DNA of 64,000 bases. It comes from Antrodiella citrinella (taxonomy: Eukaryota; Basidiomycota; Agaricomycetes; Polyporales; Steccherinaceae). A model generated the notes under the pieces. The model saw nothing but the letters and a program-made list of their open reading frames with translations. It was not told the origin of the DNA and searched no databases. The translations under genes and the position numbers were made by a program. The stretch is taken from assembly GCA_004802725.1 (NCBI GenBank), contig SGPM01000117.1, forward strand, positions 1-64,000. The letters are read 5' to 3'. Of this stretch, positions 888 to 12,648 are shown piece after piece (position 1 is the stretch's first letter; the number at the start of each line of letters is the position of its first letter).

Positions 888-3800
888 TCAATACGCATCC
901 GAGTCGTACATCTCGATTTCGGGACTCGCCGCCCGCTCCCGTTCCTCCACGCCCTCCTGCGCCCTCCACATCGTGTACAGCGCCTTCCCGAGCTCCTTTC
1001 CTAGGGCGAGGCCGAGCGGGATGGGCACTGCGTTCCCGATTTGTTTGAGTTGCTGCGGGTGGGGCACGGTCAGCGAGTGTGCAGAGTCACTGTGAGCGGG
1101 ACTCACGTCGTTGATCTGCCCACTCGTCGAGTTCTGCAACGACAGGAACTGGTAGTGGTCCGGGAACCCCTGGGACCGCGCGCACTCCCGCACGGTGACG
1201 ATGCGCTTTTGCTAATGGACGCGGCCCCGCTCAGCGATCGGCGTAGGTTCCTAGAGCGGAATGGACTTACCGTGGGGTGGAGGACGCTCCCGCCTTTCGC
1301 GCCCGGGTTCACCTTGGTCAGAGCCGTCCTGAAGTGGCCGTCCCCGTCGATCCGGCCCAGTACAGCTGAGGTGCGTCCGCGTTAGTGCGTGTCGTAGAGA
1401 CGAGAGATAGAGACTCACATTTATACCCAGATCCTTTCTTGCTCGGCATCGAGAGCTCGGGAGGCAACACTGCTCGACATCGCGTCAGCGTACGTTCGAA
1501 AACAGCAAACAATCCACAGCTACTTACGTTCGTGGTTCGCCTTGGGCTCCATAGGTATATTCGTCACCCTGCGCACAACAGTGTTCATCAGCTCGACGTC
1601 CAAGTCCAACCAGCACGACACCACGAAACCCACGACTCACCGCTCCACCATCAACGCGCTGAACTTCGCCGAATAATGATACTTCACGCGCCCGCGGTCG
1701 CCCATCTGCCGGCGCATGAACAGCTGGTAGCGGTTCGCCGGCTTCCGCGCGTACGCCACCGCGTTCTCGTACCCCGCGCACGACGTCCGGTCGTTGATCG
1801 CGGACACTTGCGCGATACCGTGTGCGCGCCGCCCGGCGGTCTCGCGCGCGTCGGCGGCGGTCTTGCGCAGGACTTCGTGCGGGTTGATCCTGCGGGCGTC
1901 GTGTGGCGGCGTCAGGTGTTGCGTCGTGTCGCGAGAGGCGGATGGGTGCTTACCAGTCGAAAGCGGGCTACGAAGAAACCAAACGTCGACGTCGGGTTTC
2001 GAATACACAATAATGCGTTTGTTTGCACTCACCAGGTCCGAGATGGCATCCATGGACGTGACTGAAGGCATCGGAGCACATTGGTGGTGAATCTTGGGGT
2101 CGTCGGAGCCGTCGTCAGAGCCGTTCACCCAGCTGACCCGTGTAGGCGGCTTCAACACATCCCCGTGCGGGAGGTTGATGTTCTGGGTAGGCTCAGAGAA
2201 GAAGTGTGTCGGGACCGGGAACTTCGGGAGAGGCAGATCCCGCCTCGCTCCCCAGAAGATGACTCGCAGTCTGCCTTGGGGGGCGCCGTATTGGCCTGCT
2301 TGCAGAAGCTTGAACCTCGCTTGATACCTGGAGAAAAATAAAAAAAGTCAAAGTCAGAAAAGAGGGGTGATGTGGGAGAACGGGGGAAGGGACTCGCCCA
2401 AGACCGATGAGAGACCTGAGGATGAACTTGATCACGCCCATCCTCACAGAGTACTTCTCTCCTCCATTCTTCTGCTGCTGTTGCTGGGAGAGGGTGTGGT
2501 ACACCATGCCTTTGACATTCTCCAGCAGGAAGTACTGGGGCCTGTAGAACTCCACATAGGAGAGCATGTTGGCAGGCATCGTGCTCCTAAGATGCAAGGA
2601 TTAGTGAAGAGGAGAAAAGAGATAAGCAGCAGTGCACACCTCATATCATCTGCTTTCTGTTAAAATAATAATAATAAGCAAGGGACATGTAGAATAGACA
2701 ACAATCACATACCTTGTTGTGGTTCATCCCAGAGAAACTCTGACATGGTGGGCCTCCAAAAATGAAATCCACCTCTCCAGGCATGGGCATTGAGGGCAGC
2801 TCCTTGGGATCAGCCTTGTTCAAGCTTGTCAAGGGTGATGGCTTCTTTCCTTCAAATGACAAGATAGCATGCGCTAGTAGAGCATTAGAGCACTGGTTGT
2901 ACACCACAGTGTTCTTGTGGTTGGCACTGCAGAGACCTCAGCACAACAGGTACAATATAGTAAAATAGTAAAAACAAGGTACTCACCCATGAGTGAGAGC
3001 AATAACAGGCTCAAATTCAACAGCCCACTTGGTCTTGACAAATCCAGAGAAATTGAAGCCAGTTGAGAGTCCTCCAGCACCAGCAAAGAGTTCCAAGCCT
3101 CTCAGAGGACCATGCTCAGCAAGCAGGGATGCCTGCTCTTCTAGTGCAGCAGAATGCTCAGCTAGACAATCTGGACAAGGCTTCAGAATCTTGGCAGACA
3201 GAGGGGTGAGCTCATCAAGACTGTCTGGGTCTGGAGAATCACAGAGCAAATCAGCATAATAGTGATCATCATGCTCCACCCATTTCTCCAGTTCTGAGTG
3301 AGAAACTGTACTGGGATGAATGACAAAGATCCTGTCATCAATGACTTCCAGAGGTCTAGCATACAACATCTTGGATGTCAAGTATAGCCTCCTCTGTGTA
3401 CAACATTAACACAAAACAAACAAAGATCATGAACAGCACTCACATCATCAGCAACCACACCCTCTTTGGTGGAATCCTTGGCCAGCAGACTGTATCTTGC
3501 AAAAAGCCTGAGATGCACAAACCATTCCTCTTCATCCTTGTAGAACTCCACAATCTGGGCCACCTCATAGAGACCATGAAAGGACAGTGAAGGCCTAACA
3601 TAGACAAAATCTCCTTGATGATAAGCATGGTCGACATGCGACATGCCCCCATCTGGGAGAGGCAACCACTTGGCAGCTTCTTCTTCCAGTTTCTTGACTC
3701 CACATGAATAGCAAGGTCGCAAGGGCTCACAGGCTTTGATAGCTGCCTGGTGCTGTTCAGGAGTGATCTCCATAAAACAGGAGTCATCTTGATCCCAACT

Positions 3801-5889
3801 CAGTCTGCAAACATCATCAGCAAGAAAGTCAAAGTTCCAGAATAAAACTCACCCAGTGAAAAAGTCATTATCATCATATGCAAGGTTGGGAAGAGGCTCT
3901 TCATCTGAAGGCTCCAACACCCTCAGATTGCACTTCTGATAGATGCAATCCAAGTCTAAATCATCACACTCATTCATGAGAAAGAGTGCTTGAGAATGGG
4001 CAGTCTCTTGCAGAAGGATCTGGGATCCAGGCTGATACCATTGGGCATGGAAAAGCTTCCTACCCTCCTCCTCAAAGAAGTAACATATCTTGGCAAACCT
4101 ACAACAAGTCAGAGGTATACAGAAACCAATTTTAAACTGAGCATACCATTTGGTGTTTACAAGATGATTTGTGCTTGTTGACTCAACCATCTGGGCATTC
4201 TTCATCCTGGTATCATTAGTGTCTTCTCCAGGAACTATAATCACAGAATCCCCAATCTATAAAATCACATGAGTTCACTTCCAAGTTAAACAAGATAAGA
4301 TAGCACCTTATAGAGCACACCATCAATTCTGACAGACTGGTAGTGCCCAGAGCCCATCTCAGTCTCTTCATCCCACTGAACATCTCCATGGTTGCTTGTA
4401 TGAATAGTAGTGACAGGAGGCCCCTCTTGGATTTGCTCCAGATTGAGAGGTACCTTTCCAGTCACTTGCATGGGCTGAATAAACAGATTTCTTGCAAATT
4501 GGCGGACTCTGTATGTGACCACAGTCCGCTTGGCCTGAACACTAGGCCTAGCAAGAACTGAGGGGCTCACTCTCATACCCTCATTACTCAAAAGGTGGAC
4601 CAAGAGGGGCACATTCTCCAGGACACTGTGCAGTTGGTTACTCTCAGCAAATAGATCTTTGAGAGACTGCACAATGAAAGCTTGCTGTGGAGCTATGAGT
4701 TACAGAGAATCAAACTGGAACAGCCACATAAGCACTTACAGTGTTGTCATCCACAAAATCAGCTACAGAGACAGTTTGACCTGTGACCTTTTCAGCTTCA
4801 CCATTCATATCTTGCACCAGAAGGTCCTGGAACTGTATGACATCTAGTTCAGGGTCATCAAGAGATGAGGACACCACCAAATGAAATAAGTGGTGCCTTC
4901 TCCAGAACTCTGCAAACAGTGGGGCATAGGAAGCTGAAGGCACATCTAAAATGTACCAAGCAAATTCTGTCCTAATGTAGATTTTGCTGTGCACTGACAG
5001 TCAGCTCTGTAAACAAGGAGAACAAACCAAGAATTACCTGTCCAGAGTATCCTCTTCCCCAGCTTCACTGACATAGTTGACATCCACCTCCAGGATGTCT
5101 GTCAATGCCACAACCAGCTCATCATCATCCTCCACTACCCCAAGGTCTTCTCCATCATCTATCCAGGCAGCAACGATGCCACTGGCACCAATCCCATGAG
5201 GGCCATCTCCAGCACAGTATAGATCATGAAACGAGACCATCTCGTTACCATCCAGACGATAGACTGTAAAGTCCGAGAGCACACGGACAGGAACATATTC
5301 TGGAGAATTGTCCTCTTCCGGCAGCAGTTCACCGTAAACCTCAAGGTCGTACGTCTCCGGAGTTTCATCCAGCTCTGGGACATATATCTGAGCAGATGCT
5401 ACAAACCAGAGTCAACAACCCATGCATGCATACAATGATGACAGCTCACCCAAATTTTCACACTCTTGACTGTCATATTAGAGTGAGAAATTGAAACATG
5501 TCAAAAGGTAAGAGGTCTGACGTACCCAACAACAGTACGAGAACTGTTGGATTGATGCTCTTCATCCATCAACATATCACCATTGTCCAAGACCTCCTGT
5601 TCATCTCCTGATGCAGCCTGTTCCCCGTCGTCCCAGTCATTCTCCTCTCCACGTCCGGAGGATGTCTCGCTACCGCGGCGAACTTTACGGGCAGCGGGCC
5701 TAATGGGACGGAATGATCAGAAGCATGGTAAGATTTGCTGTGTTGCGGTGCTTACCTTGGATGCTTCCCTATGAAACCTGCCTTCAGGGTCTCTTTGCTC
5801 CGCGTCCTGTACCGGACGGGTGACCCGCACCACCATGAGGAAGTCTTGCGACGTCGGATCGCGTCGAATTTGGAGCTTACGCTGACCAT
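888..5889 (-). CDS. DNMT1: DNMT1-type DNA (cytosine-5) methyltransferase with RFTS and two BAH domains
   Basis: The gene spans 5.0 kb with many short introns, and the protein is roughly 1,250-1,300 residues (estimate). Reading on the minus strand: a basic N-terminus, an acidic linker, an RFTS domain ([12 protein letters not shown] near 5270), a first BAH domain (about 4300-3850), a second BAH domain (about 3770-3240), then the catalytic domain. The catalytic motifs are all present: motif I ([12 protein letters not shown], about 3080), motif IV ([10 protein letters not shown], about 2745), motif VI (LLENVKG, about 2520), motif VIII (QGRLR, about 2260), motif IX ([10 protein letters not shown], about 1180) and motif X (QIGNAVP, about 1035). 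No CXXC zinc finger is seen. It should methylate CpG in the nucleus, probably as a maintenance enzyme. The start at 5889 was chosen because only that frame joins exon 1 to the next exon across the intron at about 5696-5755; the longer open frame beginning at 6112 does not. The middle of the gene is almost free of CpG. Confidence 0.93.
2582..5173. other. CpG-depleted block inside the methyltransferase gene
   Basis: By direct reading, this 2,592-base stretch has only six CpG dinucleotides (cytosines at 2872, 3632, 3639, 3718, 4503 and 4527). GpC, TpG and CpA are all common in it. Immediately outside, CpG is frequent: 5221-5280 alone has four, and the 900-2340 segment is dense in them. The block covers exons and introns alike, from the RFTS domain to catalytic motif VI, and the reading frame is intact throughout. 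The pattern fits long-term CpG methylation with deamination, but methylation itself cannot be seen here. Confidence 0.95.
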
Positions 5890-6311
5890 GATAGGTCCCC
5901 GCGCGAATCAAGAGGGGACTATGGACGACGGCGACTCGAGTAAGGACCTGTGAGAACTTGAACGTTTGAGGGTGAGACCGTTGAACAGGGTTCAAAAGTA
6001 GAGAAGAAAGGTAGGATTTCTCCGTGACGGCGAGTTGTAAGATATGCTTGGCGAAGGAGGGGAATGGGTGATGAAATCTGACTATCACTTGACGGTGAGG
6101 ACGAGGGGCCACGCCAGAAGGTATCGCGGAAGTCAGACGACGGAACGGAAAATGCTGTCGCGTCGGTGAAGGGTATCAGAGGTGGAATGGTGTGCGCAGG
6201 TCACCGAAAGCGGGGCACCAAACGGAACGGGCGTAGGACTCGACGTATTGTCGAAATTCGGCCAAGAGTCAACTAAGAGACTCGCGTTCAACAAAGTTCA
6301 GGTCGCGTACG

Positions 6312-6325
6312 GTCACATATGTGAC
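6312..6325. promoter_or_regulatory. 14-bp perfect palindrome between DNMT1 and MCM7
   Basis: GTCACATATGTGAC is a perfect inverted repeat in the divergent promoter, 78 bases upstream of the MCM7 start codon. A third GTCAC half-site follows at about 6331. This looks like a dimeric transcription-factor site; the factor is unknown. Confidence 0.4.
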
Positions 6326-6341
6326 ACTTGGTCACAACAAG

Positions 6342-6347
6342 ACGCGT
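6342..6347. promoter_or_regulatory. MCB-like element (ACGCGT) upstream of MCM7
   Basis: ACGCGT is the MluI cell-cycle box bound by MBF-type factors at G1/S in yeasts. It lies 56 bases before the MCM7 start codon. Replication-licensing genes are classic MBF targets, which makes the site plausible; one hexamer alone is weak evidence. Confidence 0.4.
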
Positions 6348-6402
6348 CGGTGGTTTGACTCTTAGCCACCTCTTCTCCGTTCCTTCATCCCGTATTCTGG
6401 CC

Positions 6403-9189
<2,787 letters not shown>

Positions 9190-9450
9190 CTCGGCTAGGA
9201 CGTGTAACAACGCTGCTTTGCTCACTCGTCTGTTGAATAATCGGTCGTATACCCTCATCTCGCTCTGCTTGTCGTGCTGCGTCTCTACTATTTGTAAGGT
9301 ATCCGTGTTGTGTATTTTCATTGTCATATAAATATTATCACTTGCGAAAGATTATAGAAAACGGTATCAGCATAAATCTCCAACAACAACACCGCCAATA
9401 TGAGAAATAAAAGCTACATGCGAGACGTGAAACCAAACCGCTCACAAGGG

Positions 9451-12334
9451 TCACCGCGCATCCGACGCATGTTCCCAGCTCTCCCCACTGTTGTTGCTAC
9501 CAGTCCCCTCAGGACTGGGAGCACGCTCTCGTAATGGTCCTGGTGTCACTTCTTGGGTTTGAGGTGAATCTGGCTCATCTTTGTAACGCGAAGGAGCAGG
9601 TGTCAGGCCTGCAGCTGTCGAAGGATCGTCGTCCAAGAAGCCGGCATGATAGGTCAAGCCTTCCGACTGCTGCATCCCGCTCCTCAACCCGGTCTCTTCA
9701 TCAGCATCGTCATCCGAAACCTCGCCAAAGGCGTCGTACAGCTCCCTCGTCCGTGGTCTGCCACCGACAGTGCTCATGGGGAGGTTGTCCGTAGGTAAGC
9801 TGCTGTAGTTCTTGCGACGGGCGACACGTCTGCGCCAGAAGAAGATGGCTGCGGCGATACCGAAGAGAGCGACTACACCGATGGCGACGAAGAACCAGAC
9901 TTGGGTGGTCACGAGGGTAGATAAATCTGAGAACCAACCCTGGTCCGGTGTTGGCGTCGAGGTGGTACTCGGGGAGCTGGACGGGGTAGGAGGTGTAGCA
10001 ACGTCGTCGCCGCCGGGGAAGGCGGGCTTGTCAGCATCACCTTCAGCAGCACCAGGATCACCGAGGTGCTCGGTAGGCTTGGGATGCTGCTTGCTTCCAG
10101 TGGCAGTGGGGAGGTCGATGGTTGGGCTGGGGGCACCTGCCTCGAAGAGTGGTGGAAGGGTCGAGTCGAGTACAGGGACGTCATATACAGGAATATCCTT
10201 CGATGCGTCAATGGCGGATCCCCACATGGTCATAGTCCAGCCGAGGAACGTCCCAGTCTCATCCTCCTTGTTCTGGTCAGATACACGAATAGTCCATGTA
10301 CCAACAGGGTTCTCGTCCCTGATCAGAGGTGCAATCAGAATATGTACCGTATTATCCACCTGACGAACAAGACTCACCAATGCTTGACAGTCATGAATAC
10401 CCAGCCCGGGAAACCAGTCTGATCTGAGTCTTGATAACGCTTGGCAGCCAATATACTCTTGACACCGTTGGGACTGACGAGCTCAACCTCAACATCACCT
10501 CGGCGGGTATGGGTGATCCACACTTTGACGGTGATATGTTCAAGCTTCTCGAAGTTGCGACGGGAGAGACCGTCTTGGCTGACCTGAACAGTGCTAGTTA
10601 CGCCACCAGCAACGATTTCAGTGCCGCCAGAGGTGGAAAGGAAAAGGTCCATGGTACCACCGTTGACCTGCACGACGGGAAGGTCCAACCAGACTTGCGG
10701 CTTCACCGACGTCCACTCTTGAGCAGCCTTGACAAACTGGTATCCGTTGATGGCCCCGTAACCGTACTTGTAGCTGAACGGTCGGCCAGCTGCTGTTGTT
10801 TCCCAGTCAGGATCGTCAGGGTTGACCTGAACGGCAGATTGGACACAAATATGTTGGATATCGCGCCAAGAGAGATCCGGACTAAGACACATCAATAAGT
10901 CACAAAATACAATGAGAAGTGACATGCAGACTGACCGTGCACTCATGCCAAGAGCGATGACACCAGCCGCGTTGGGTGCAGCAGCAGAGGTACCACCGTG
11001 ACTCGACGAGCACTTGTTCTTGCCGATATCCGTCGTGACCTTGAAGTTACAATCAGTAAAGCGAGGAGATCAGCCATTAACATCAATGACTCACAATATG
11101 ATTACCGCTACCAGACGAGTATGCGACCACCATGTTGGCTGCACATGCCTCGGAGTAGTCGGGATGAAGACCTTTATAATCTAGTGCAGCTACGGTGACA
11201 GAGAAGATAGAGTTGGTATATCCATCGAAGTTGCATTGGTCCCCGTTTCTACCACCATTTCCGCTGGCGAAAACAAACACGGATCCTTTCCCTCCACGAC
11301 CATTCTGAATGCCATTCACCATGGACTTCTTGATGAGGTATCCTGGACCCTCCATAGCCCGGCCATTATCTGGAGGACCCCAACTGCAAGAGAAGATAGA
11401 AGTGTTCTGGAATCCATAGTTGAGCGCTGCAGCCTCGTCTACATCGGAGATAGGCCCCGAGAGGATACGTATACCGGCGACTTTTGAGTCGTATGCAATA
11501 CCAACACCACAGACATCGTTTTTGACGGCAGCAATCTGTCCTGCACAGCGTGTACCGTGGTGGTCGTCGAAAAGAACGGGGGCAGGCAAGTCCGTGTGAT
11601 CGTTGTAGTCGTGAGAACCCTCTGCGTCCTGCGGATTCCTTGGTCAAAAATTTTGTGGAACGGATTCAGGGAAACACACGTACGAAATTGGCAGCCAAGT
11701 CGTCGCTGTTGTAGTCTAAGCCATCATCTACCAGCGCGGATATGATACCGTGACCCGTGATACCCATGTCCCATACACCGGTAACATTCATCATATGCTG
11801 CGGGTAATCGTCGTTCACCAGATGCCACTGGTTGGTGAACTCTGGGTCCAAAATTCTCATCCGCATCGCGACAGCCTCTGAAGTCTCTAACCCAACTGCA
11901 TCCGGCCCTGGTATTGGAGGGGGCGCACGCTTGACCCGCTGCCGCAACTCCTGCCGTTCGAGATACTTGACTGAGTGAATGACCCGTCGACTATGTTCGA
12001 CCTCCTCCGAGCGAGAATAAAGCGAAGATGAGGCTCTGGATTGCAGGTCCTCGAAAGCTCGTAGGACACGGTCTTGAGGTTCCCCCCGGGCAGTGAGCTG
12101 CTGCAATGGTGGCTTCGGTGAGCGCACCAGCCAATGATCCCGAAGTTCCCCTGCTTGCTCTACAACCTCGACCCCTAGTGAGCGCGCGACCTCGGCCAGC
12201 GAAGCACCAGCGGCGGTGGGTACGTGTTCGATAACATAGTAGTCGTGAGTAGTGTAATGGCGTTTCGCAGGCCGTGCAGCGAGGACTTGGTCGTGAAGAA
12301 GCAAAGCAAATAATAAAGCAAAAGAGAACCTCAT
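9451..12334 (-). CDS. KEX2: kexin-type proprotein convertase (KEX2)
   Basis: Golgi membrane serine protease that cleaves secretory precursors after dibasic sites. The N-terminus is a signal peptide (MRFSFALLFALLLHDQVLA) followed by a propeptide. The subtilisin-like catalytic domain has Asp in ALVDDGLDY (about 11720), His in DDHHGTRCAGQ (about 11550), the SCSWGPPDNG oxyanion region (about 11380) and Ser in HGGTSAAAPN (about 10980). A P-domain follows (about 10720-10270, HTRRGDVEVELVSP). A Ser/Thr/Pro-rich stalk leads to one transmembrane helix (VWFFVAIGVVALFGIAAAIF, about 9840-9900) and a cytosolic tail. This is the full kexin layout with nothing missing. It converges on MCM7 with 261 bases between the stops. 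Confidence 0.95.
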
Positions 12335-12648
12335 TGCACCAGAGGCTTGCAGACGAACGGGGTCGTCGTCTGCTACGATGAAGAAGAGAAAATAGGAAAG
12401 AGTGATGGAATGGAGGAGGACGGTGTCAGCGGGGAGATGAGAGCGAATTGCACGCGCGGTGGCGGTGGTATCGAGTGTCTCAAATTGGGAGCGCTTTCAT
12501 CAATCCTTGATCCACATCAGAGTCTCACCGCGGTCTGACCTATCCTCAAATATTCAGCTGCAAAACCGTCGCAATGTGCATAGCATACATAGACACGTCT
12601 TGCTACTGAACTAGCTAGTACTGGACCCAATTACATTCGTCGTGGCAC
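12335..12648. other. spacer between KEX2 start and POT1 stop
   Basis: These 314 bases should contain the KEX2 promoter and the POT1 3' region. I see no gene, tRNA or repeat. Confidence 0.5.

Follow-up and report, generated by a model that had tools for sequence, protein, structure and literature searches.

A CpG desert in the DNMT1 gene of Antrodiella citrinella and its probable origin in gene-body methylation

The gene for the DNA methyltransferase DNMT1 in the agaricomycete Antrodiella citrinella (Polyporales, Steccherinaceae) carries in its middle a region of 2.7 kb that is almost devoid of CpG dinucleotides. The window analysed comprises the first 64,000 nucleotides of contig SGPM01000117.1 (C21; 73,549 bp) of the 30.0-Mb draft genome, which consists of 602 contigs. 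DNMT1 lies at 888-5889 on the minus strand, and the CpG desert extends within it from 2437 to 5173, with 7 CpG per 2737 bp in exons and introns alike. This footprint is probably the result of a long-standing CpG methylation of the DNMT1 gene body followed by deamination under purifying selection.

Gene-body methylation is commonly judged from sequence by the ratio of observed to expected CpG (O/E). A preliminary description, made from the sequence alone, had counted six CpG in 2,592 bases, and the recount of 2582-5173 gave the same number (O/E 0.046, GC content 0.452) in a window with an overall CpG O/E of 0.966. Residual CpG were located at 2580, 2872, 3632, 3639, 3718, 4503 and 4527, and the nearest ones outside at 2435 and 5174; the edges of the desert were thus refined to 2437-5173. 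Both edges are sharp and fall within exons 13 and 4, so that the block starts and stops inside coding sequence and spans exons as well as introns, as had been described. The description of CpG-rich gene ends also held: 888-2580 contains 171 CpG (O/E 1.12), and the 5' coding part at 5174-5889 (minus strand) contains 37 at an ordinary density (O/E 0.81). The 3' coding part at 888-2436 (minus strand) is mostly CpG- and GC-rich, with 400-bp windows reaching an O/E of 1.58 and a GC content of 0.66. According to the exon table, all nine introns inside the desert (minus strand; 4987-5037, 4685-4739, 4257-4306, 4099-4146, 3805-3852, 3394-3443, 2927-2986, 2657-2712 and 2587-2639) are free of CpG, whereas the eleven introns outside hold 50 CpG in 614 bp.

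The depletion was compared with a genome sample of 257,549 bp (0.9% of the assembly), composed of positions 6001-64000 of the window and 20 loci picked non-randomly, according to contig number and with a fixed offset. From this sample 183.5 CpG were expected in 2437-5173. The longest CpG-free gaps in the desert measured 785, 760 and 647 bp, compared with a maximum of 163 bp in the sample. Among 4,080 overlapping sample windows of 2,592 bp, the CpG count had a minimum of 127 and a median of 172, and none of 2,491 overlapping 500-bp windows had an O/E below 0.5. When base composition was taken as the basis, the Poisson probability of the CpG count was 7e-48.

The loss is specific to CpG. GpC is abundant in 2582-5173 (O/E 0.975) and TpG and CpA are common (O/E 1.43 and 1.51), in agreement with the preliminary description. 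Codon choice was evaluated against a background of 31 long open reading frames (12,283 codons). NNY codons that precede a G ended in C in only 2 of 138 cases (1%) in the desert, compared with a background fraction of 0.54, whereas those preceding other bases ended in C as often as in the background (164/283 = 0.58 versus 0.58). Arginine was encoded by AGR in 22 of 25 cases, against 27% in the background. Re-drawing the 755 desert codons with background codon usage yielded 146 ± 9 CpG and never fewer than 115 in 2,000 draws, in contrast to the 7 observed. Relative to the expectation from the sampled genome, the desert has 176 CpG less and 127 TpG and CpA more, and its GC content of 0.456 is close to the 0.449 predicted from CpG loss alone. 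Neither a low GC content nor biased codon usage nor an unspecific C-to-T process accounts for this CpG-specific loss. A general AT bias was ruled out as well, given the background level of third-position C before bases other than G and the normal GpC frequency.

The affected gene is intact. The model comprises 21 exons and 1290 open codons for a protein of 1290 aa without an internal stop; its introns are of the GT-AG type, with one GC-AG intron. The A. citrinella protein EUX98_g4594 at NCBI is 97% identical to it, and the NCBI model (P0001, 1252 aa) represents the same gene with 32 + 6 different residues. Pfam profiles identified a DNMT1-RFD domain (PF12047, 6.5e-8), two BAH stretches (PF01426, 1.6e-18) and a C-5 cytosine methylase domain (PF00145, 7.2e-46); their combination in one open gene assigns the protein to the DNMT1-RFD (Masc2-type) group. 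The domains, all on the minus strand, were placed on the DNA manually via the exon table. The RFD domain (4863-5291, residues 146-271) starts just outside the desert, and the best BAH stretch (3771-4312, residues 437-568) lies inside it. The methylase domain (987-3102, residues 775-1258) matches profile positions 2-323 of 324, which bears out the earlier claim of intact catalytic motifs. That claim requires a correction in one respect: the desert covers the N-terminal domains and also the first third of the catalytic domain, including the GPPCQ stretch, and the remainder of this domain is encoded by CpG-containing DNA.

The genome encodes a kit for CpG methylation, with DNMT1, DNMT1-like, DNMT5-like, SRA-domain and TET/JBP-domain matches. 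PF00145 matches were found in three loci. Besides DNMT1 these are a divergent second DNMT1-like gene with an RFD-like stretch (C355:5600-10000) and a DNMT5-like locus with methylase and SNF2 domains in adjoining open frames (C164:23700-30000), both of ordinary CpG density. SRA-domain matches occur at two further places (C1, C542), both CpG-normal. Depletion of many expressed genes, as is expected of gene-body methylation, was not observed: the 257.5-kb sample, 0.9% of the genome, did not contain a second desert. A depletion of this kind in many further single-copy genes, named in the preliminary description as a refuting observation, was likewise not seen in this sample. The small and non-random sample leaves room for a minority class of further desert genes.

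Of seven TET/JBP places that were examined, two had low CpG frequencies (C577, about 77.5-80.4 kb; C234, about 30.0-31.5 kb). These places (C577:77513-80400 and C234:30000-31500) are AT-rich with a CpG O/E of about 0-0.4 and contain TET/JBP-like open frames (PF12851, below the curated cut-off). Their frames belong to a dispersed TET/JBP-like family with nine matching places and no stops within the matches. TpG and CpA are about equally frequent in both (197:219 on C577, 105:124 on C234). The place on C577 holds non-ACGT letters, visible as X in the translations, as does the one on C506 (L044), where the first 900 bp are without G or C and probably consist of N. TET/JBP-like frames with a similar scar are of interest as enzymes on the opposite side of the 5-methylcytosine pathway.

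The sequence gives good support for a CpG-specific scar in the body of an intact, single-copy gene, and the methylation and deamination put forward in the preliminary description are thereby supported in part. In the sequence of events that we favour, the middle of DNMT1 would have carried CpG methylation through a long stretch of evolution, in nuclei that reach the next generation. Deamination of 5-methylcytosine would then have converted nearly all CpG to TpG or CpA, with purifying selection preserving splice sites and protein, as arginine shifted to AGR codons and NNC|G to NNT|G. The 5' coding part would have escaped, as would the gene's 3' third. The intact frame and splice sites, the average conservation of the block and the fact that NCG codons were not simply turned into NCA speak for a long process under purifying selection and not for a burst; a recent burst of deamination was considered and disfavoured, as a build-up of NCA was absent.

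Deamination may have taken place during transcription, that is, in a methylated expressed gene body and not at a silent locus, as suggested by the excess of TpG on the coding strand of the introns. The nine desert introns contain 56 TpG and 14 CpA on this strand, a TpG fraction of 0.80. In 142 introns elsewhere that were defined by motif, the fraction was 0.59; reversed or shuffled sequence gave 32-35 such matches, so that about a quarter of the 142 would be chance hits. Resamples of nine introns gave 0.59 ± 0.06, and 0 of 5,000 reached 0.80. A deamination biased to the coding strand during transcription would yield this skew together with a deficit of NCA codons. In Escherichia coli, raised deamination of the non-template strand has been reported (PMC2927911). 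A strand bias derived from the total TpG and CpA counts of the coding sequence was dropped, since a simulation of symmetric synonymous decay produced equal counts.

Recurrence of the desert in other fungi was approached through the arginine content of the block in related proteins, arginine being the sole amino acid directly constrained by CpG loss. The best 120 of 438 protein matches were aligned, without P0001 (same gene) and P0024, and 10 of the 120 were dropped for a short block or C-terminal part. The 110 usable proteins, A. citrinella included, are termed relatives here; they do not necessarily represent 110 species or orthologues, and some are metagenome proteins. Block arginine ranged from 2.3 to 7.7%. 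Proteins with at most 4.0% were classed as low-Arg (22 of 110, i.e. A. citrinella and 21 of the 109 others) and those with at least 5.5% as high-Arg (n = 48). Low-Arg genera include Steccherinum, Cristinia, Abortiporus, Cerrena, Dentipellis, Russula, Rickenella, Neolentinus, Pholiota and Galerina. The A. citrinella block is of average conservation, with a mean identity of 0.398 to the 48 high-Arg relatives (lower in 60 of the 110 proteins) and a mid-range block-to-C-terminal distance ratio of 1.19 (larger in 60 of 110).

Compared with high-Arg proteins, the low-Arg blocks gained Gln (+0.98 points), His (+0.60), Trp (+0.21), Asn (+0.51) and Ile (+0.73) and lost Asp (-1.12) and Val (-0.47). These are the products expected from missense changes of CpG to CpA or TpG, and none of the shifts was significant in the C-terminal part. 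Arginine content covaried among the thirds of the block (Spearman 0.50, 0.35 and 0.32), compared with 0.21 between block and C-terminal part and 0.01 between block and N-terminal part. In phylogenetic contrasts, block arginine fell as His/Gln (-0.56) and Ile/Asn (-0.43) rose, without such a relation to Lys (-0.14). The desert is likely common to the clade of Steccherinum, Cristinia and Antrodiella, and by the same protein proxy its wider recurrence among Agaricomycetes is plausible. An initial impression of bimodal block arginine, gained from 11 proteins, gave way to a wide distribution with a tail of low values once 110 were compared. Replacement of arginine by His, Gln or Cys at conserved columns was not used, as the high-Arg set has a similar spectrum, and a comparison with Steccherinum, in which the block was at least as near to outgroups in 8 of 9 cases, was replaced because Steccherinum itself is low-Arg. 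Contigs of the viral collection IMG/VR had methylase matches at 21-51% identity, none of them useful here.

Several observations weigh against long-standing gene-body methylation or its recurrence. AG/CT exceeds the sampled-genome expectation by 99 in 2437-5173, a surplus that CpG decay does not directly predict. The fraction of NCA in the desert, 0.25, does not fit the simplest decay model (0.46 ± 0.04 under symmetric synonymous CpG decay). The total coding TpG and CpA of the desert fit its codon structure (z 1.4 and -1.7), which confines the strand argument to 435 bp of intron and the NCA deficit. None of the 8 reverse-transcriptase loci sampled from 47 matches had a CpG scar, nor did 5 of the 7 TET/JBP places, so the scar is not general on repeats in A. 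citrinella. Among the relatives, the block itself served to define low-Arg status, and the covariation of arginine within the block was no better in phylogenetic contrasts (r 0.19-0.25) than that between block and C-terminus (r 0.19). The trade-off of arginine with His/Gln was found in the C-terminal part, too (-0.41), where arginine was also opposed to Lys (-0.44) but not to Ile/Asn (-0.15), and low-Arg proteins had less arginine there as well (-1.09, p 0.001). Their blocks gained Phe and Leu without a gain of Cys, and were slightly more divergent relative to the C-terminal part (1.205 versus 1.172, p 0.003). On a tree of 23 proteins, the low-Arg label was scattered without forming a clade and required 6 changes; 107 of 500 shuffles needed as few.

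An unlikely alternative is CpG hypermutation similar to repeat-induced point mutation (RIP) or methylation induced premeiotically (MIP), in which the present copy and a former 2.7-kb duplicate were both mutated in a sexual cycle before the duplicate disappeared. A partial duplicate would account for the sharp edges within exons, and RIP in Neurospora may be strand-biased per event, which also counts for this explanation. CpG-biased RIP-like mutation is described for Agaricomycetes (PMC4457147; PMC4014442); the preliminary description had referred to Pucciniomycotina, a taxon that does not include the agaricomycete host. A search of the whole genome with the desert DNA returned only the desert itself, although a duplicate may have been lost, and the nearest paralogue is 32-56% identical, depending on the stretch, and CpG-normal. 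A RIP burst would strike Arg CGN and NCG codons, yet neither a stop nor a frameshift was found across 21 exons, NCG codons were not turned into NCA and the conservation of the block is average. A RID-like gene (RID/Masc1-type) was not recognised among the PF00145 matches, for which 11 candidates were scored in the 602-contig draft. The low rank given to RIP in the preliminary description is thus upheld by the lack of a duplicate, the intact frame and the missing build-up of NCA.

Selection against CpG itself, because methylation of the gene body is harmful, for example by self-silencing of DNMT1, or for a reason at the RNA level, has little probability. The near-complete loss in exons and introns would fit such selection, as would the observation that NCA was not the main replacement of NCG codons. 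The introns were, however, hit as strongly as the exons, and TpG and CpA rose alongside the CpG loss. The adjoining coding sequence at 888-2436 retains its CpG, about 170 separate weakly selected changes would be required, and the gains of Gln, His and Trp in low-Arg relatives resemble mutational products.

A spread of repeat heterochromatin is very improbable; here a transposon, aged or since lost, within or next to the gene would have attracted methylation that then extended over the block. The contig ends 2.4 kb from the desert, and the two other low-CpG places are AT-rich and lie within the dispersed TET/JBP-like family, both of which would be compatible with a repeat origin. The 2.4 kb between desert and contig end contain on average 40 CpG per 400 bp, compared with about 28 in 6001-12000, and the desert DNA is without another match in the genome in a search that skips simple repeats and very common words. 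Spreading heterochromatin would also be expected to fade and not to end inside one exon. A mosaic gene, whose block stems from a CpG-poor allele or genome through introgression or conversion, could produce the abrupt change in GC and CpG near 2436 but is highly unlikely, because FastTree trees of the block and of the C-terminal part, with support of 1.0 and 0.98, agree in grouping the protein with Steccherinum and Cristinia.

Region 1-2436, from the contig end through the 3' third of DNMT1, has a high mean content of GC and CpG (400-bp windows reach a GC of 0.66 and an O/E of 1.58); near the desert edge this richness is perhaps the result of biased gene conversion or of a never-methylated domain. 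The neighbouring genes at about 6930-9088 and 9451-12496, named by eye from their translations, are MCM-type helicase-like and kexin-type protease-like, with a CpG O/E of 0.70-1.26 per 500 bp.

Gene-body methylation as known from animals and plants shares with the A. citrinella locus a footprint that is limited to CpG, covers the middle of an intact gene and spares its 5' and 3' parts. The difference is that here the pattern is known from its sequence footprint and affects one gene in the sample instead of genes broadly. In fungi, gene-body methylation is reported to be largely lost with some exceptions, possibly for its mutational cost (PMC13297926). Mutation of basidiomycete transposons by RIP-like or MIP-like processes is similar in the loss of CpG by C-to-T change, which one group credits to Masc2-like methylation and deamination (PMC4352252; also PMC4457147). 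These processes hit repeats, whereas DNMT1 of A. citrinella is single-copy by our search, open and spliced. In the agaricomycete Rhizoctonia solani AG8, coding genes undergo CpG to TpG hypermutation (PMC4014442), which appears as widespread heterozygous single nucleotide polymorphisms (SNPs) in contrast to the fixed and bounded desert of a single gene.

Two plant systems resemble the locus in its possible function. The Arabidopsis epigenetic rheostat ROS1 is an enzyme of the methylation pathway whose own locus is targeted by methylation and responds to its level (PMC4380477); ROS1 is a demethylase controlled via a transposable element 5' of the gene, whereas the footprint described here lies in the coding body of a methyltransferase. 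The gene for the chromatin enzyme IBM1 carries intronic heterochromatin as a sensor, with gene-body methylation across species despite sequence change (PMC11265718). In Arabidopsis, a repeat within the 7th intron acts as this sensor, in contrast to the nine short introns and the exons of the 2.7-kb block, in which no repeat was found. Among the literature matches listed, from which subscription papers were mostly absent, none described a fungal DNMT1 gene as CpG-depleted or self-methylated.

In Ganoderma sinense, 98.7% of the methylated cytosines were reported within CpG (PMC4457147), and gene-body methylation and expression were negatively correlated in two Pleurotus species (PMC5974365). By analogy, methylation of the DNMT1 body would plausibly damp the gene and form a negative feedback; that the desert tunes the dosage of DNMT1 is speculative. 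We regard it as a tentative and rather doubtful possibility that the DNMT1 of Agaricomycetes has a built-in methylation sensor, in which the DNMT1 gene receives methylation over its transcribed middle, either from DNMT1 itself or from DNMT5 as a partner, and DNMT1 dosage is thereby limited. Such a sensor would have recurred or persisted across mushroom orders, with the block mutated to its last CpG and the protein rewritten to an arginine-poor form; the residual CpG would then mark a sensor that has nearly run out of substrate. The pattern in the relatives can be checked in already sequenced genomes, and for A. citrinella itself a SNP study reports the sampling of 110 individuals, 12 of which were later dropped for low coverage (PMC12878558). 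A single gene that apparently bears nearly the full mutational cost of methylation would, being the gene of the CpG methyltransferase itself, provide a natural test of the self-regulation of methylation as well as of protein evolution under saturating CpG decay.

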